Below are positions 3,754 through 62,854 of a stretch of DNA of 64,000 nucleotides, piece by piece. The stretch lies in assembly GCF_007859755.1 (NCBI RefSeq), contig NZ_SJPF01000002.1, positions 639,729 through 703,728 of the forward strand, given 5' to 3'. The stretch is from Blastopirellula retiformator. Lineage in GTDB: Bacteria; Planctomycetota; Planctomycetia; Pirellulales; Pirellulaceae. Within the stretch, counting starts at the first letter, position 1; every line of letters starts with the position of its first letter. Made by a program: the position numbers and the translations under genes. The notes under the pieces are model-generated. The model was not told the origin of the DNA and did not search any database. It saw nothing but the letters and a program-made list of their open reading frames with translations.

Positions 3754-4230
3754 CTAGTCGTGCGAATGCTCGTGGAACTTGCTCAGATGCTTTTTCACGA
3801 ACTTCAGCAGGCCGTCGATCAGGTCGTCGTGATCCTTTTCCATTTCGGTCAGCTTCTTGCCGACAGCCGCATGCTCGGCTTGCAATTTCTCGTGCGACTT
3901 TTCGAGCTTGTCGTGCGAATCTTCGTCGTGCGAGTCGAGTTCTTCTTCGTGTTCGGCGATGTGTTCGGCATGAACGCGGATTTCTTCCGCCATTTCTTCC
4001 AGTTCGGCGTCATGGGCGAGGATCTCGGCCTCGAGCATCGCCAAGGCGGCGAGCGCCTCCTTGTGCTGAATCCGCATTTTGCCGATCTGCGTCATCCACT
4101 TTTGATGATCGGCGACATCCTTCTGATGCTCTTCGTGCATCTCTTCATGCTCAGCATCGGCGCCAACCGCGATCCCGGGGGCAAACAATAGAGCGCCCAT
4201 CAACAGCCAGGCATAATGGGAAGTAGTCAT
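3754..4230 (-). CDS. Exported histidine- and glutamate-rich coiled-coil protein
   Basis: 158 residues, starting at ATG 4230 with GGAG eight bases upstream. A signal peptide (MTTSHYAWLLMGALLFAPGIAVG, cleavage near ADA) is followed by an almost wholly helical, highly charged body with about 18 His and many Glu/Asp (EHEEMHEEH, HAEHIAEHEEELDSHDEDSH, FHEHSHD at the end). The heptad-like spacing suggests a coiled coil in the periplasm. The His/Asp clusters suggest metal binding; this is inferred from composition, as I know no named family. It lies between two Fur-type regulators, has palindromes upstream (4344-4384) and its own terminator, so it is probably a single-gene, metal-regulated unit: a buffer or scavenger of zinc or similar. 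Confidence 0.8.
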   Translation of the reverse strand: MTTSHYAWLLMGALLFAPGIAVGADAEHEEMHEEHQKDVADHQKWMTQIGKMRIQHKEALAALAMLEAEILAHDAELEEMAEEIRVHAEHIAEHEEELDSHDEDSHDKLEKSHEKLQAEHAAVGKKLTEMEKDHDDLIDGLLKFVKKHLSKFHEHSHD

Positions 4231-4343
4231 TTTCGATCTCCAATCGAGAGCTTGGGGGGGTAACCAACCGGTGTGAGAATATAGCACGCGTTTGGCGGTT
4301 GGGGCGAAAAAATATTTGCCGCGGATCGTGCGATAATCAGTCC

Positions 4344-4384
4344 GTACACCTGCACAGAACGTGTACAAATCGCAATTGAATTGC
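4344..4384 (-). promoter_or_regulatory. Two palindromes upstream of the His-rich gene (putative Fur-family operators)
   Basis: GTACAC-N11-GTGTAC (4344-4366) is followed five bases on by the perfect 13-base palindrome GCAATTGAATTGC (4372-4384). The second has the same 6-1-6 GCAA...TTGC layout as the palindrome ahead of the neighbouring Fur-family gene (4970-4984). Both lie in the 197-base gap upstream of the His-rich gene. Assigning them to a Fur-type regulator is inference. Confidence 0.5.
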
Positions 4385-4427: not shown

Positions 4428-4898
4428 TTATGCCTGGGGTCGACAGACTCGGCAACGCCCTTTGATCAGCATGTCGGTCGCCTCGATGTCGCTCGCCCCT
4501 GCGAGAACGGCGACGCTCTGCTGCACCGACACCTCGCGCAAGCAGCGCAATTCGCCGCATTTCACGCAGTAGAAATAGGGATGGCGAACGGCAGGTTCGC
4601 CATCGTACCGAAAGTCGGCGATCTCAAAGAAGCGATCGCTTTCGCCGGTCTCGATTCGCCAGACGATTTCCGCGGCGGCGAACTCCGTGAGCCCGCGAAA
4701 TACGGTTGAAGCGTCATATTGCGGAAGTCGCGCGGCAATCTCGTGGTGCGTCAGCGGTCGATCTGCGGCGACAAGACATGCCAATACGTCCATACGTGCT
4801 TCGGTGACGCGCACCTTCGCCTTTTCAAGCAGCCGAGCGAGGCGCGACGGGGTTAGCAAAACCCGTTCGATAATCTGTCGACCATTGCGGTGCGGCAT
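4428..4898 (-). CDS. Fur-family metal-responsive transcriptional regulator 2
   Basis: A 156-residue Fur superfamily protein with a winged helix (about 15-90: RVTEARMDVLACL, HHEIAARLPQYDASTVFRGL) and a metal/dimer domain with HPYFYCVKCGELRCL plus a C-terminal CRVC, so both CxxC pairs of the structural zinc site are present. It is clearly diverged from the Fur homologue at 3027-3470, with a different recognition helix and FRGL in place of YRTL, so it probably has a different operator or metal. The start at 4898 is forced, since an in-frame TGA lies four codons upstream. A perfect palindrome at 4970-4984 precedes it. The spacing to the divergent flp gene (348 bases) leaves room for separate promoters. 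Confidence 0.87.
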   Translation of the reverse strand: MPHRNGRQIIERVLLTPSRLARLLEKAKVRVTEARMDVLACLVAADRPLTHHEIAARLPQYDASTVFRGLTEFAAAEIVWRIETGESDRFFEIADFRYDGEPAVRHPYFYCVKCGELRCLREVSVQQSVAVLAGASDIEATDMLIKGRCRVCRPQA

Positions 4899-55471: not shown

Positions 55472-55726
55472 ACCCGATTCACGGTGTCCCACGCTCCGTC
55501 GACGATCATCGATTCGCGAAGAATCTTCCCTCGTCGCCAAACTCTCCTTCAAACGTCGTTCAACGTTTCGAGGGAACGTAGCTCTCTTTGCCAGCTCGCC
55601 AATCGTTCTGCCGATTGGGCCAGCCAGCCTCTGTGTTGCAACGGATCACTCCGTACTTTTCCGAGCCCATTCCGCTGAGGCGATGTGCGTCGCCAGCGAT
55701 TCGCTCGCTTTCCACCGAGGTGTTTC

Positions 55727-56527
55727 ATGATGATTCGAAATGTGTGCTGGCTGCCATTCGCTAGCGCTGTTCTCTGCTTTTTGGCGGCAGCGCCAGTCTC
55801 CGCTGCGCCAATGTCCCTGATCGATCCAGGCCTTTCTGGTTCGACGCAATACGATGAGTGGACGAATACGGGTTTGATTGGCGCTTCCAATCCGGGATTC
55901 CCGGGTTTCCCTGGCAGCGGCGCCTGGCCCAGTCCGATTGGCTCCGACGCCGTCGGCTCTGGCGATGCAACGCTCAACAAAACCGCCAATGGCTCTGGCG
56001 GCGGTCCCTTTCCCTCAGGCAGCAGCATGTATTTCGGCGGCTTCAGTTCCGCGATCAACAACGATGGGGGAACCTTGCAAGTCGCCGATGCGACTCCTGT
56101 CGCCAATCTGCAGACCGTTAGCTTTCAGGTTCAGATCGGCGAAGCCTGGACTTACGACTTCTTTGACGACATCCTTCCGACGTTGAGCTACAACGGCGGA
56201 TCACAGGATTTGGCCGCGACGACATCGCTATTGCTGGAGCAATACGACAACGGAACTGTCACCATGCCCTCAGGCGAAGAGACGGTGTATATCAACACCT
56301 ATCTACTGACGTGGGACCTCAGTTCGATCATTGGCACGATTTCTGATTTCGCCATCGACTTTACCGGCGTTCAGCACGCAACGCTCTTCACGCTTCGCTT
56401 GGATCAGTCGGATCAACCGGTTGCAACGCCAGAACCAGGAAGTCTCGCTCTTCTGTTGGGCGGGATTCCGGCAGCCATTTGGTGCCTGCGTCGTCGCCGC
56501 AATGCAAACGCCGAACTTGCGGCCTAG
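55727..56527 (+). CDS. PEP-CTERM secreted protein 1
   Basis: 266 residues from ATG 55727 (GAGG upstream). Signal peptide (CWLPFASAVLCFLAAAPVSA), a Gly/Ser/Pro-rich N-terminal part (SNPGFPGFPGSGAWPSPIGS), a beta-rich middle, and a C-terminal sorting signal ATPEPGSLALLLGGIPAAIW followed by CLRRRR. The body matches no family I know. It should be handled by the exosortase at 49063. Its TAG stop codon is the left end of a family-A repeat (56528), which supplies everything downstream. Confidence 0.85.
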   Translation: MMIRNVCWLPFASAVLCFLAAAPVSAAPMSLIDPGLSGSTQYDEWTNTGLIGASNPGFPGFPGSGAWPSPIGSDAVGSGDATLNKTANGSGGGPFPSGSSMYFGGFSSAINNDGGTLQVADATPVANLQTVSFQVQIGEAWTYDFFDDILPTLSYNGGSQDLAATTSLLLEQYDNGTVTMPSGEETVYINTYLLTWDLSSIIGTISDFAIDFTGVQHATLFTLRLDQSDQPVATPEPGSLALLLGGIPAAIWCLRRRRNANAELAA

Positions 56528-56680
56528 CTGCCTGTTGAAAAATGCCATCGTGGCATTTTTCAACCTCGCCAGGCTCAGAGCATAGCTCTTCGCGGCTCGC
56601 AAAATAACGACTTACGTCGCTATTTTGGGATCGCATCCGTGCGATCACGCAGTCCGTCGAGAAAATCAACGGACTGCTAG
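56528..56680. repeat. MITE-like repeat family A, copy 4 (long form)
   Basis: Like copy 3 (25101-25253), but its central palindrome has decayed on the right arm (GTCGCTATTTTGGG). It is flanked by CTAG on both sides; the left CTAG includes the TAG stop codon of the PEP-CTERM gene. The 207 bases that follow, to 56887, hold nothing recognisable beyond the start region of the next gene. Confidence 0.9.
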
Positions 56681-56887
56681 TATCGTCGCGCTCGTTGGAT
56701 AACGTATTTGGATAGCTGATTTCTCGCCCAGCGGCGGCTGGGCGAGATCAAGCATGGAAACCAAGCCAGGCAGGAACGCCGAACTTTCTGATTCGGCGAA
56801 TTCCGGGCGGCTGATAGCGGCAAGTTCGCCGCCGTCGGATCGCCGCCAGATTCGATTTTTGCCCACTCCCGCTTCAGGATCACCGGT

Positions 56888-57883
56888 ATGACCTCTCCTA
56901 CCCGACGAATTCGCACCGGCTTCACGCTGGTGGAATTGTTGGTCGTCATTGCGATCATCGGCATTTTGCTGGGCCTGCTATTGCCGGCCGTACAGCAGGC
57001 CCGCGAAGCGGCGCGCCAGGTTCAATGCCGAAACAATTTGAAGCAAATGGGACTGGCACTCCATAATTTTCACGATACGTATGGCATGCTGCCGCATATG
57101 TACAAGTTCGGCCCGTCCAGCGGAACGCCTGGATGTACTGCCGCGCGATCGCCTTTGGCGCTACTGTTGCCATTCTTAGAGCAGCCCGGCTACGACGAGA
57201 ATCCGGACATTCGGACTCAGTCGATCGCCGCCTACCTCTGCGCTTCCGACACGCCGCCCCAAGGGGCCGCGGCCACCTATTGTTCCTATGGAATCAACTG
57301 CGGGAGCAATAACTACGCTTGGAGCTGGAACTGCGACGGCGCCGACGCGTCGTCCTACTACTGCGTCTATTTTCCGGCGGACCACCTGCAGTTTGACGGC
57401 ATCGTTGATCCAGCCAGCGGTTGCTCGATGCGCGGCGGGGGTCGGACCATTCGCTTCGCCGATATCACCGACGGACTTTCAAATACGTTAGCGCTGGGCG
57501 AACGGTGGGGCCAGGTAATCGACGCCGACACGAAGGAGCCAATCACGACCGGCGTTGGCTACGCGACATGGCCCGACACCTACGCGACCTATGCGACGCT
57601 GGCGACCAATCGTCTTAACAATCACTACGGCGGCGATGATTTGCCGATATGGGCTAGCTACCTCGCCTCGTTTCGCTCGGATCATCCGGGCGGAGCGATG
57701 TTTGCCTTGGCCGATGGTTCGGTCCGTTTCATCACCGAGGAAATCAATCGTGATGCGACTTCGGGCTTCCAATATCCAGTCGGAACGGGCGCCGGATCAC
57801 GTGGGGCGGTAAATCCCAACCAAGCCGGTTTGCTGTTGAAGTCGTTGGCGACGAGATCTGGGGGGGAAGTCGTTGAGTTCTAA
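56888..57883 (+). CDS. DUF1559 pseudopilin-like protein
   Basis: 331 residues. The type IV pilin-like leader [21 protein letters not shown] (cut after Gly11, Glu at +5) and helix, then [20 protein letters not shown], the C-terminal [20 protein letters not shown] and [10 protein letters not shown]-type ending that define the DUF1559 family, found in great numbers in planctomycetes. The body is Cys-rich ([20 protein letters not shown]). It is probably inserted in the envelope after prepilin peptidase cleavage; the function of the family is unknown. It overlaps the next small gene by 11 bases. Confidence 0.9.
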
Positions 57884-58725: not shown

Positions 58726-59496
58726 ATGGAACTGCAGCGACCGTTTTTTGCTTGGGTATCGATGGCGGTTATCGCCGTGGCAATGAGTGCGACCGCTCAT
58801 GCCGACACGATGCCAGTCCCGTTGTCGATCGTTTCGGGCGCCGACCTGACCTCCGGCGTTACGATGACCGGAAGCAATGGCAACTCGTTGGCCGTTGCGA
58901 AACTCGGTTCCACGATGGACAGCGACTTCTACATGAGCTTCACGTTGGATGCGTCCTACTTGGGAACGATGGGCGACAATGACTTCGTCACCCTGTGGAT
59001 GAACAACACCGGAACCTTCAACCCTGGCTTTACCGATCCGACCATCGGCCTGAAGGGAAACGAAGGGGGCTCGGGAACAAATGACCTGATGCTTCGCCTA
59101 TCAGGCACCGGTGGAACCTTCGCCAACTACGATCTCGACACCGAAGGGGGTACGGTCACGATCCTCAGCAAGCTCTCCAAGACCGGCGGCACGCTGTTCG
59201 ACCAGATGGAGATGTGGGTCTTCGGCGGCATCAACACCAGCCCGTTGGCCGACCTGGTCACTTTGGCCGGTACGGCCGACGCTTACGCCAGCACCAGCGT
59301 GGGCGGCAGCCTCAGCGAAATCGGCTATGTCGGTCTTCGCAGTGCGAACCTGTCGGGCGGCGACATGGTCACCGTCGACAATGTGCAGTTCGCCGCTGTC
59401 GTGCCGGAACCCGGTACCTGGGCGATGTTGGGCATGGGTAGCCTGGTTGGCTTGGCCCTGTTCTTCCGCAAGCGTCAGACGGCGCTGGCCGCCTAG
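58726..59496 (+). CDS. PEP-CTERM secreted protein 2
   Basis: 256 residues. Signal peptide (AWVSMAVIAVAMSATAHA, cleavage before DT), a beta-rich Gly/Thr/Ser domain of about 200 residues (DFYMSFTLDASYLGTMGDND, FVTLWMNNTGTFNPGFTDPT), likely a jelly-roll or similar fold, then the sorting signal VPEPGTWAMLGMGSLVGLAL with FFRKRQ. The PEP motif, helix and basic end are all canonical. A terminator follows at 59562, so it is probably a single-gene unit. Confidence 0.87.
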   Translation: MELQRPFFAWVSMAVIAVAMSATAHADTMPVPLSIVSGADLTSGVTMTGSNGNSLAVAKLGSTMDSDFYMSFTLDASYLGTMGDNDFVTLWMNNTGTFNPGFTDPTIGLKGNEGGSGTNDLMLRLSGTGGTFANYDLDTEGGTVTILSKLSKTGGTLFDQMEMWVFGGINTSPLADLVTLAGTADAYASTSVGGSLSEIGYVGLRSANLSGGDMVTVDNVQFAAVVPEPGTWAMLGMGSLVGLALFFRKRQTALAA

Positions 59497-59712: not shown

Positions 59713-59740
59713 TTGACGCGATCTGCTGGTTGGTTAAACT
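59713..59740 (+). promoter_or_regulatory. Promoter of the cobalamin-riboswitch unit
   Basis: TTGACG (59713-59718), 16 bases, TAAACT (59735-59740). Transcription would start near 59747, two bases before the first paired base of the aptamer, a fit that strongly supports both calls. Confidence 0.7.
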
Positions 59741-59748
59741 CTGTCGGT

Positions 59749-59963
59749 CCTCGGTGGCCTTTTCACTCGCTAGTGAAAATGGTGAACAGGGAACTCCGGT
59801 GAAATTCCGGGACGGTCCGGCCGCTGTGTGCCCCCGCGATCTTGAGTGATCGCACCCGTCGCTCCATACGTTGATAGACCATTGTTCGCGTCGCCCGGTA
59901 AAGGGTTTGCGGATGAGAAGGTAGTGAGCGCGGAACAGGGGTAAGTCAGAAGACCTACCGAGG
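59749..59963 (+). promoter_or_regulatory. Cobalamin (vitamin B12) riboswitch
   Basis: About 215 bases. Closing helix P1 is perfect: CCTCGGT (59749-59755) with ACCGAGG (59957-59963). The conserved core GAACAGGGAAC, then CCGGTGAAATTCCGGGAC, CCGCTGTGTG and the B12 box AAGTCAGAAGACCTACC are all recognisable and in order. In this class adenosyl- or methylcobalamin binding normally switches the downstream gene off. The region after P1 (59964-60118) has no good terminator, so control is probably at translation. TTCCCTGTTC (60081-60090) is exactly complementary to GAACAGGGAA (59784-59793) in the core, a likely switching pair. Confidence 0.93.
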
Positions 59964-60118
59964 AACAGACGATTTGGCGCCCTCTTGGATTGGGGCGGTC
60001 GTTGAGATGTTTGCGATCAAGCCGCGGGAGTCGCTCCTTCGCGCGCTCGTATTCATTGATTCCTGCAGGATTGGGTCCCCTTCCCTGTTCGCTCCACGAG
60101 TGTCTGTGGTATTCACTC

Positions 60119-61204
60119 ATGGCTGCAAGTCATTCCGATTGCGATCTGCATGTAGTCGAGAGTTCGCCCCTCTCTCCGTGCACTGGCGTATGCCGATTGC
60201 GCACGCCGGAGAACGATTGCGTCGGATGTGGACGAACGATCCAGGAAATCGCTCGTTGGCCGCTTGCCGACGACGAGGATAAGCGGCGTATTCTTCGTTT
60301 GTCTCGCGAGCGGCGAAACGATCCGAACCTGACCAACCGCTCTCGTCGCGATGGCTTCACGCTGGTCGAACTGCTGGTGGTGATCGCCATTATCGGCGTG
60401 CTAATCGCATTGCTGCTGTCGGCGGTCCAAGCCGCTCGCGAGGCGGCGCGAAAAACGACCTGCAAGAATCATCTGCGGCAAGTCGGCCTGGCGATTCATC
60501 TCCATGAATCGGCTCTCAAGAAATTTCCGGTCGGCTGCATTGGCTGTCGGTTCCAAGCGCCGGCGGCAGGCCAGCCGTTCGTGCCGCAACGATTTCTGTC
60601 GTGGAACATCCAGATCCTTCCCTACCTGGAGCAAGACGCCCTGTACCAGCAGTTCGATCTGTCGGTCCCTTCCTACCAGTCGCCCAACAGGGAAGCCGGC
60701 GCCAATCTGCTGACGGTCTTCCTTTGCCCTAGCACGCCTGATCCGACCGAGCTCAACACGACAGGCCTGTGGAAAGACATGGCGTTTACCGACTACTGCG
60801 GCGTCTATGGGGTCGAAGGGTCAGGTCGAGAAGCGACCGATCCCAACAGCAAACACAACCTGGCGCCTCAGTACCTGGGGGTGATGCTGTACGAAGAAGC
60901 GATGAAACACCGCGATGTCGCCGATGGACTATCGCACACCGCGCTAGTCGCCGAGACCATTCGCCGCCGCGTGACCGAAAACGAATGGGCCAACGGGAAC
61001 AATCTGTTCGCCCAAGAAGGATCAACGCCGATCAACGCGGTCTCGGGCCTGGGCAACGACATCGGCAGTCCCCATCCAGGCGGCGCCCATCTCGTCTTTT
61101 GCGACGGACATGTTCAATTTCTGGCCGAGACGGTCGATCAGGAAGCGCTGAACGGCATTCTCACCAAGTCGGGCGGCGAAGTTCCCTCGGATCAAATTCA
61201 ATAA
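60119..61204 (+). CDS. DUF1289 / DUF1559 fusion: four-Cys domain ahead of a pilin-like leader
   Basis: 361 residues from ATG 60119. Residues 18-60 match DUF1289: SPC21TGVC25...C34VGC37GRTIQEIARWPLADDED, a small four-cysteine domain thought to bind a metal or Fe-S centre. It is followed by a pilin-like site SRRDG79/[16 protein letters not shown] with Glu at +5, then the DUF1559 body (AAREAARKTTCKNHLRQVGL; HPGGAHLVFCDGHVQFLAET). If prepilin peptidase cuts at Gly79, the DUF1289 part would be freed in the cytoplasm; pilin leaders are usually under 30 residues. It is the first gene under the cobalamin riboswitch and probably heads a unit with the two PEP-CTERM genes. The ribosome-binding site is weak. 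The start could lie further upstream, since the frame is open to 59990, but that would run into the riboswitch platform. Confidence 0.82.
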   Translation: MAASHSDCDLHVVESSPLSPCTGVCRLRTPENDCVGCGRTIQEIARWPLADDEDKRRILRLSRERRNDPNLTNRSRRDGFTLVELLVVIAIIGVLIALLLSAVQAAREAARKTTCKNHLRQVGLAIHLHESALKKFPVGCIGCRFQAPAAGQPFVPQRFLSWNIQILPYLEQDALYQQFDLSVPSYQSPNREAGANLLTVFLCPSTPDPTELNTTGLWKDMAFTDYCGVYGVEGSGREATDPNSKHNLAPQYLGVMLYEEAMKHRDVADGLSHTALVAETIRRRVTENEWANGNNLFAQEGSTPINAVSGLGNDIGSPHPGGAHLVFCDGHVQFLAETVDQEALNGILTKSGGEVPSDQIQ

Positions 61205-61250
61205 CATTCACAACTACACCTGTATTCAAATCATTTGCGGAGAGAGACGG

Positions 61251-61982
61251 ATGCGACTTTTCACGGCCCTTCTACTGGCGCTGCTGCCGGCGACGTGCTT
61301 TGCGGACGCCGTTACTGATTTCGACGACATCGACTATTGGGTCGGATCGGGATCCAACCAGGCGGCGATGGTGATCGACTGGGGCGAAGGTAGCGACACC
61401 CCGCCAGCGCTCACTTGGGGCTATCGCTGGGACGGAACCGCCACCGGCGAAGACATGTTCCGCGCGATCGTCGCCGCGGACGAGCGTTTGTACGCGAAGA
61501 TCGATGCTGTGGTCGGTCCGTACGGCGTCTCGTTGTATGGCATCGGCTATGACTACAACGACGACGGCATGTTTGGCCTGGACGATGGAAGCGTCTTTGA
61601 CGCCAACGGCATCGCAGGGGTTGCGGCTCCTGCCGATGGCGGCATGGCGCTCGATTCCGGCGATCTCTATCACGAAGGCTGGTTCACCGGCTTTTGGATC
61701 TATGGCGTCGCTGGACTGGATGGCCTCGGCGATCCGACGAATCCGTACGATGGCGGTTCTTGGACCGGGGCCGTGAGCGGGATGTCAGGTCGCGAACTCG
61801 CCAACAACGATTGGGACAGCTACGCCTTTTCGCCGACGTTCAACTTCAGCAACTTTGCGACCAACCCGGTCGCGGCCGAAGTGAACGCCGTGCCCGAGCC
61901 GAGCAGCTTGGCTTTGTTGGGAATCGCCGGCGTCAGCCTAGCGCTGCTTCGCCGTCGTCGCCGGTCCGCCAACAACTCCTAG
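61251..61982 (+). CDS. PEP-CTERM secreted protein 3 (riboswitch unit)
   Basis: 243 residues with GGAGAGAG before the ATG. Signal peptide (MRLFTALLLALLPATCFA), then an Asp/Gly/Trp-rich domain (YWVGSGSNQAAMVIDWGEGS, LTWGYRWDGTATGEDMFRAI, YDYNDDGMFGLDDGSVFDAN) with several Ca-loop-like acidic stretches, and the sorting end VPEPSSLALLGIAGVSLALL with RRRRR. I cannot name the family. It starts 46 bases after the fusion gene, so it is very probably controlled by the same riboswitch. It may be a surface receptor or capture protein for corrinoid, an inference from regulation only. Confidence 0.85.
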   Translation: MRLFTALLLALLPATCFADAVTDFDDIDYWVGSGSNQAAMVIDWGEGSDTPPALTWGYRWDGTATGEDMFRAIVAADERLYAKIDAVVGPYGVSLYGIGYDYNDDGMFGLDDGSVFDANGIAGVAAPADGGMALDSGDLYHEGWFTGFWIYGVAGLDGLGDPTNPYDGGSWTGAVSGMSGRELANNDWDSYAFSPTFNFSNFATNPVAAEVNAVPEPSSLALLGIAGVSLALLRRRRRSANNS

Positions 61983-62029
61983 ATCGCATGCGCGTTCATC
62001 TTTGAAAACGTACTCCACTTAGGAATCTC

Positions 62030-62854
62030 ATGTGCATCCATCTGCGCCTGCTCGGTCTGATCGCGGCGATTTTGGCGACCTGCCATCTCGCCTCGCGGCA
62101 TGCCATGGCGGACTTCGCCAATGCAATCGTCGACTACGATCCGGGTTACGCGGCGAGCAGCGGCTACACTTCGGCCGGAGGGACGCAAGCCCTCGGCGCG
62201 CCAACTCGCGATACTGGTTTCGGCAGCCAAGTCGGCGTCTTCTACTCTCCGTACCAAAGCAGTGAGATCGCCCAGATCGGTCCTGGCGGTCATTTGACCG
62301 TCAGTTTCGCAGACCCCGTGATCAACGATATCGCGAATCCCTTTGGGATTGACCTGCTAGTTTTCGGCAACGCCTTCTACTTAAATTCTGGCGGCGTCGC
62401 CGGCGCCGTCGCCGCCGAGCCAGGCGTCATCTCGGTCAGCCAAGATAACGTGACGTACTACGAGATCTCGGGCGTTTTCGCCGACACCGCCTTTCCGACG
62501 CTCGGCTACCAGGACACCGCGTATAGCGGCAGCGGCAATTCGGGCGGCACGATTCTGACCGACTTTACGAAACCGGTCGATCCGTCGTTTGACGCCACCG
62601 GGCTGACCGAGGCCGCGATCAACGCCGCCTACAACGGCTCGGGCGGCGGAACCGGCGTCGATATTGGCAGCGTCGGGCTCGAATGGATTCAGTACGTTCG
62701 CGTCAGCCTCGCCGGCGGCAGCGCGATTGAAATCGACGCGTTCGCTGATGTTGCGGCTGCGGCCGCCCCCGAGCCCAGCAGTTTGGCGCTATTAGGAATT
62801 GCCGGCGTCAGCTTGGCGCTGCTCCGTCGTCGCCGCGGCGCGAGAGTCTCGTAG
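62030..62854 (+). CDS. PEP-CTERM secreted protein 4 (riboswitch unit)
   Basis: 274 residues. Signal peptide (LRLLGLIAAILATCHLASRHAMA), a beta-rich domain (VVDYDPG-like start, GGHLTVSFADPVINDIANPF, GIDLLVFGNAFYLNSGGVAG, GVDIGSVGLEWIQYVRVSLA) and the sorting end APEPSSLALLGIAGVSLALL with RRRR. This end is nearly identical to that of the preceding protein, so the pair are probably sorted together or the tails share a recent origin. No catalytic motif seen and family not recognised. It follows the previous gene by 47 bases with AGGA upstream. A family-B repeat begins 6 bases after its stop. Confidence 0.85.
   Translation: MCIHLRLLGLIAAILATCHLASRHAMADFANAIVDYDPGYAASSGYTSAGGTQALGAPTRDTGFGSQVGVFYSPYQSSEIAQIGPGGHLTVSFADPVINDIANPFGIDLLVFGNAFYLNSGGVAGAVAAEPGVISVSQDNVTYYEISGVFADTAFPTLGYQDTAYSGSGNSGGTILTDFTKPVDPSFDATGLTEAAINAAYNGSGGGTGVDIGSVGLEWIQYVRVSLAGGSAIEIDAFADVAAAAAPEPSSLALLGIAGVSLALLRRRRGARVS

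Follow-up and report, generated by a model that had tools for sequence, protein, structure and literature searches.

Members of many microbial communities share vitamin B12 and compete for it, and its uptake by Gram-negative bacteria is known mainly through the TonB-dependent receptor BtuB. Among the closest described systems are the btuBGH operons of Bacteroides, where a cobalamin riboswitch precedes genes for surface B12-binding proteins (PMC10404256). A similar arrangement is found in the 64,000-nucleotide stretch of Blastopirellula retiformator analysed here (contig NZ_SJPF01000002.1, positions 639,729 to 703,728; hereafter the window), in which a riboswitch and three genes lie between 59713 and 62854. 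In contrast to the Bacteroides operons, the TonB-dependent BtuB is absent and a pseudopilin is present. The operon is very probably a B12-capture cassette that is repressed by B12, has exosortase-anchored surface proteins and includes a pseudopilin of its own, as predicted from comparative sequence evidence; an earlier note on this DNA had suggested a B12-responsive surface apparatus, perhaps for corrinoid capture, and the comparison supports that prediction. The sequence itself shows the aptamer, the arrangement of the operon, sorting signals of pilin and exosortase type, and a layout that is conserved across genera. The features are as follows.

59713-59740, + strand: promoter-like site TTGACG-16-TAAACT, 9 of 12 consensus bases, weak
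59735-59976, + strand: cobalamin riboswitch aptamer RF00174, Rfam covariance model, 72.9 bits, E 4.6e-16
59977-60118, + strand: leader from aptamer to gene 1, with no listed intrinsic terminator and no unusual fold
60119-61204, + strand: gene 1, fusion of DUF1289 and prepilin-like DUF1559, 361 aa (Pfam)
60173-60316, + strand: DUF1289 part of gene 1, residues 19-66 (Pfam, 1.1e-13)
60338-61144, + strand: prepilin-like DUF1559 part of gene 1 (Pfam)
61251-61982, + strand: gene 2, 243 aa, transcobalamin beta-domain-like core and PEP-CTERM signal
61305-61883, + strand: transcobalamin beta-domain-like core of gene 2 (model comparison)
61887-61961, + strand: PEP-CTERM signal of gene 2 (Pfam)
62030-62854, + strand: gene 3, 274 aa, BtuH-like core and PEP-CTERM signal
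62108-62755, + strand: BtuH-like core of gene 3 (profile chain and fold)
62762-62836, + strand: PEP-CTERM signal of gene 3 (Pfam)

The cobalamin aptamer claimed in the earlier note was recovered over the full length of the covariance model (positions 1-189), well above the gathering score of 31.5 bits, and is the sole Rfam match above that score in the window. The promoter described with it fared less well. A promoter-like site is present, but the scanned region holds two such sites where shuffled sequences average 0.8, so the evidence is weak. The last six bases of the site lie within the aptamer model, whereas the earlier note had it end two bases ahead of the aptamer. As for the leader, no terminator-like site was listed between the aptamer and gene 1 in the scan of the region, and positions 59977-60140 (164 nt) fold no more stably than shuffled sequences (z 0.58). 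Translational control of the operon is therefore more likely than intrinsic termination.

The three genes downstream are closely spaced and run in one direction, as had been noticed, with gaps of 46 and 47 nt. Pfam confirmed the proposed joining of a four-Cys DUF1289 domain to a pilin-like DUF1559 protein in gene 1: DUF1289 (51.2 bits, cut-off 27), the prepilin N-methylation motif (residues 74-100) and DUF1559 (residues 104-342, 1.4e-53) each exceed their own cut-off, and the C-terminal H-X9-DG motif is present. Genes were called with a simple in-house script and their starts are not certain; for gene 1, translation could begin after DUF1289, from the in-frame TTG at 60299. The N-methylation motif, DUF1559 and H-X9-DG are common to gene 1 and the DUF1559 prepilin-like proteins of planctomycetes, among which DUF1289 fusions are also found elsewhere. 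Genes 2 and 3 were described as exosortase-type proteins with nearly the same C-terminal signal. Indeed, their PEP-CTERM signals score 26.2 and 21.2 bits (cut-off 20.7) and the peptide PEPSSLALLGIAGVSLALLRRRR is common to both; their N-terminal signal peptides were judged by eye.

Homologues behind cobalamin riboswitches, on which the earlier note had made its case depend, were found in many genera. Within the family, RF00174 is present at all six other loci. The DUF1559 gene comes first in five of them, and the sixth (G054:C213; G, C and L numbers are our labels for genomes, contigs and loci) has gene 3 without a DUF1559 gene. The reading that gene 2 occurs in all 47 matching family genomes was rejected, since outside six genomes nearly all matches are to the C-terminal PEP-CTERM tail. 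A gene 3 profile matched 20 of 294 genomes of the phylum, the host included, and RF00174 lies upstream on the same strand at 15 of the 19 other gene 3 loci. In a named collection, 86 relatives of gene 2 were found and 80 of their loci were kept, two of which, L115 and L122, belong to the cultured Lacipirellula limnantheis I41 and Adhaeretor mobilis HG15A2. The search for RF00174 covered 48 of the 80 loci, from 47 genomes, without the remaining 32, all Chryseobacterium, and the riboswitch was found in 46 of the 47 genomes. Sixteen of the 17 planctomycete loci have a motif-checked riboswitch at most 1600 nt upstream of gene 2; at the remaining one (L124) cmscan confirmed it. L117, L120 and L123 coincide with G054:C140, G065:C363 and G136:C222. 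Counting these once, 20 distinct planctomycete loci with gene 2 were found, the window and the other family loci included, and all 20 have the riboswitch. In Bacteroidota, the upstream riboswitch was motif-checked in 20 of the 24 loci searched; elsewhere the motif check gave 0/3 in Verrucomicrobiota, where cmscan confirmed a riboswitch at L119, 1/3 in deltaproteobacterial loci and 1/1 in Kiritimatiellae.

The 16 planctomycete genomes of this search carry one or two cobalamin riboswitches each, from which we infer that such linkage by chance is negligible. It is highly improbable that the riboswitch serves gene 1 alone or is a relic. A weak promoter-like site before gene 2 (61207-61234) would fit such a coincidence, but the linkage recurs across many genera, and at both Chryseobacterium loci that were checked a riboswitch stands 130-133 nt ahead of gene 2, which has no other marked gene nearby.

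The earlier note had seen no known B12 transport gene in the operon, a statement that needs revision for genes 3 and 2. Gene 3 is, by profile chain and by fold (model pLDDT 60), homologous to the B12-binding C-terminal domain of BtuH and, on this evidence, a distant BtuH relative. Like the BtuH surface B12-binding lipoproteins of Bacteroides (PDB 7biz; PMC8941943), gene 3 has the fold of the B12-binding domain and the GGxGG..F and GNAF region; its locus likewise carries a cobalamin riboswitch, and its product is predicted to be exported to the surface. It differs in having PEP-CTERM sorting in place of a lipid anchor, in lacking PKD domains and neighbouring BtuB/BtuG, and in at least one altered contact residue. 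The protein is called BtuH-like and not BtuH because it is a PEP-CTERM protein and a TonB gene is neither in the operon nor detected in the genome. NCBIfam gave only a weak LIC_13355 lipoprotein match, to gene 3, and no match to gene 3 was found among the viral contigs scanned.

Gene 2 resembles the beta-domain of transcobalamin and intrinsic factor in model comparison. These carriers fill the top 12 rows obtained with its model (mean pLDDT 69), which has a helix at 48-58 and strands at 62-67 and 76-82. None of 30 members of the gene 2 family matches a transcobalamin-like SLBB Pfam family, a relation that divergence may hide. Compared with the transcobalamin-like SLBB beta-grasp clade (PMC1796856), gene 2 shows no sequence-level match, lacks the alpha-toroid partner domain and has an exosortase-type anchor; in some Bacteroidota the gene 2-type domain shares its ORF with a DUF5074 propeller. 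Besides PEP-CTERM, neither gene 2 nor gene 3 matched a Pfam family above cut-off, and relaxed cut-offs gave nothing relevant. Searches of PDB sequences by phmmer with gene 2, gene 3 and one L108 protein, and by profile with alignments A4 and A6, gave nothing of use.

The gene 1 pilin is part of the cassette. A pilin-type ORF lies within 2.6 kb in 43 of 49 listed planctomycete riboswitch cassettes (three on the opposite strand), or in 34 of 40 without the nine loci found via their pilin. PEP-CTERM-only control loci have one in 5 of 24 cases, over a smaller span than in the cassette count, and the background density (2 in 260,572 bases) gives an expectation of about 5%. Gene 1 is 43-64% identical to the 14 cassette members compared, but 30% to the DUF1559 paralogue that lies 2.2 kb ahead of it. 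DUF1289 was detected in 38 of the 149 genomes of the family. Fifteen DUF1289 rows have frames of at least 338 aa: one is gene 1 itself, 12 others were read and two (G109 and G103) were not. The 12 comprise ten DUF1289-DUF1559 and two DUF1289-CobT fusions, and RF00174 is present at every one of these loci. Four of the ten were checked with Pfam, the rest being assigned from their DUF1289 rows and our own DUF1559 HMM. DUF1289 as an accident of the host genome was rejected, as the fusion recurs. Among short-frame rows only G086 was searched for a riboswitch, which was found (L217).

In several sister cassettes the binder family is a different one. A DUF4465 gene adjoins seven of the ten DUF1289-DUF1559 fusions (L216, L218, L219, L222, L223, L224, L225; the L222 gene, cut by the contig end, was judged by eye), and the DUF4465 protein of sister cassettes has a PEP-CTERM-like end and stands behind a cobalamin riboswitch beside the DUF1289-DUF1559 gene. 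The domain was detected in 6 of 294 phylum genomes, at seven loci. RF00174 accompanies it at L192, L194, L195, L198 and the L193 site (L087/L108), and was not found within the stretch examined at L196 and L197; at L194 a DUF1559 gene is preceded by a second riboswitch, which is divergent. The host genome contains no DUF4465 match. Mucisphaera calidilacus is a planctomycete. The DUF4465 report names a protein of this species among those taken forward for B12-binding tests (PMC13398666). The BtuJ/DUF4465 B12-binding proteins (PMC12751083, PMC13398666) are absent from the operon described here.

PEP-CTERM proteins are generally matrix-associated, and genes 2 and 3 could encode proteins of adhesion or of the matrix that respond to B12 as a signal but do not bind it. 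This B12-responsive remodelling of the surface is unlikely. It would agree with the c-di-GMP riboswitches at two deltaproteobacterial gene 2/gene 3 loci and with BtuL, a lipoprotein of the B. thetaiotaomicron cobamide operons that did not bind B12 (PMC12751083). However, genes 2 and 3 both resemble B12-binding domains, and sister cassettes carry instead DUF4465, a family reported to bind B12 (PMC13398666).

The host genome (6.2 Mb, 97.3% complete) has two RF00174 matches, the second of which precedes metE, for the B12-independent methionine synthase. MetH is present (E 2.1e-123). CbiC, required for the corrin ring in both known routes, was not found in the genome. Neither was the TonB-receptor plug domain, for which the control was positive in E. 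coli, Caulobacter and Bacteroides. The sole FecCD match was rejected as BtuC, Pfam assigning it to the ABC-3 metal permeases. The organism therefore appears to use imported B12 without a standard BtuB and a BtuC-type importer, as judged from an assembly that is not complete. The cassette fits such a B12-using host, with MetH, a riboswitched metE backup, no CbiC marker and no detected TonB-dependent receptor. No match to the TonB plug was found in 21 of the 34 planctomycete genomes that hold gene 2 or gene 3 loci, and one more has a match below cut-off; the four Bacteroidota genomes searched have 34-82 matches each.

When cell B12 is low, the unliganded aptamer would allow expression of the operon. 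The BtuH-like gene 3 and transcobalamin beta-domain-like gene 2 proteins would be exported, sorted by exosortase and held at the surface, where they are predicted to bind cobamides with high affinity. Gene 1 would be made as a prepilin. A machine resembling those of type II secretion or type IV pili would insert or assemble its pseudopilin part, and its four-Cys DUF1289 part would remain cytoplasmic, where it might serve as a metal or redox module. The pseudopilin would work with the binders, either as a scaffold or by conveying B12 to the outer membrane or across it.

The second role leads to a tentative proposal, possible if rather doubtful: a TonB-independent uptake machine of Planctomycetota, in which a DUF1559 pseudopilus made only at B12 shortage pulls cobamides across the outer membrane. 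It would take them from exosortase-anchored BtuH-like, transcobalamin beta-domain-like or DUF4465 binders, much as competence pili import DNA. Capture alone is a serious possibility, held at a little under an even chance. The surface proteins would then concentrate B12, which would enter via porins or an unseen transporter, and the pilin would display, anchor or help secrete the binders. DUF1559-type pilins also adjoin PEP-CTERM genes without a riboswitch, for instance at 55685-57883 of the window, so display may be their general role; moreover, several cassette genomes keep TonB receptors. Porins, however, usually exclude molecules of B12 size. The pilin is also retained in the cassette though the binder family changes, and at L220 the riboswitch is followed first by the pilin gene and then by a CobQ gene, while the 7 kb of sequence read there showed no evident gene for a PEP-CTERM binder.

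Several observations weigh against a B12-capture cassette with its own pseudopilin. Its distribution is patchy: full-length relatives of gene 2 occur in 6 of 149 family genomes, the host included, and in none of three genomes of the same genus, and those of gene 3 in four. Gene 3 loci without a riboswitch exist (L077, at a contig end, L082, L085 and L088, the last two being weak matches), six of the 49 cassettes have no pilin-type ORF nearby, and 12 of the 34 cassette genomes have a TonB plug above cut-off. Of the contact residues reported for BtuH2, gene 3 clearly retains only the Asn of GNAF; it lacks the Gln of PAPGQF, and other contacts are not confidently alignable. Both structure models are modest in confidence, and Foldseek alone gave no significant match for gene 2 (best E 1.1, streptokinase; best B12 carrier 1.8). 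The gene 2 family profile matched no PDB chain and no relevant Pfam family.

The operon may represent a different way of collecting B12. The finding takes predicted BtuH-like capture beyond Bacteroidota and draws attention to a family of bacterial surface proteins resembling the domain that carries B12 in animals. It also suggests a function, open to experimental test, for part of the DUF1559 family, which is large and still unexplained. Pseudopilus uptake, if true, would provide the first substrate and regulator for some of the many DUF1559 pilin-like proteins of the phylum. A search by title or start of abstract, with most subscription journals outside its coverage, found no published description of the cassette. 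PMC12530212 was rejected as one, since there PEP-CTERM genes adjoin c-di-GMP riboswitches and cobalamin riboswitches adjoin synthesis genes.

Further observations concern the surroundings of related genes. Upstream of the operon (55685-57883 and 58726-59496), a PEP-CTERM-like gene (Pfam 16.9 bits, under cut-off), a DUF1559 pilin gene and another PEP-CTERM gene stand without a riboswitch; the pairing of a DUF1559 pilin with a PEP-CTERM protein may be a general module. At L205, L206 and L220 (genomes G127 and G138), DUF1289 is fused to CobT, the lower-ligand phosphoribosyltransferase (L205 466-1650 by Pfam DBI_PRT, 4e-108; L206 by likeness), with a riboswitch and DUF1559 gene on the opposite strand. 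L220 has CobT-CobS on one strand and the riboswitch, DUF1559, a CobQ-like gene and a probable CobO start on the other. Small BFD-like four-Cys genes adjoin the pilin genes in cassettes of f5, one other family of the phylum (L091 6461-6778, L092 6172-6486, L093 12314-12607, L095 6940-7260, L105 7911-8177). The two checked fall below the Pfam cut-off, and this separate gene may do the job of DUF1289 in f5 cassettes.

In a Deltaproteobacteria metagenome-assembled genome (L128), tandem cobalamin and c-di-GMP-I riboswitches (4139-4364 and 4476-4588) precede gene 3 and gene 2 relatives, and in Desulfobulbus elongatus (L130, 1-59) a c-di-GMP-I aptamer cut by the contig end precedes a gene 2 relative. 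In these bacteria, capture of B12 may be linked with life on surfaces. A methyltransferase-like gene, not seen 3' of the window's operon, follows gene 2 or gene 3 at L062 (13120-13962), L067 (656-1459), L110, L111, L112, L114, L115, L118 and L122, with weak NCBIfam matches far under cut-off that include a corrinoid protein-associated methyltransferase. Finally, in five cassettes of other families (L091-L093, L095 8116-9543, L096 10675-12216), gene 3 is followed by a gene for a PQQ-type beta-propeller that ends in a dockerin-like part and may be analogous to BtuG.

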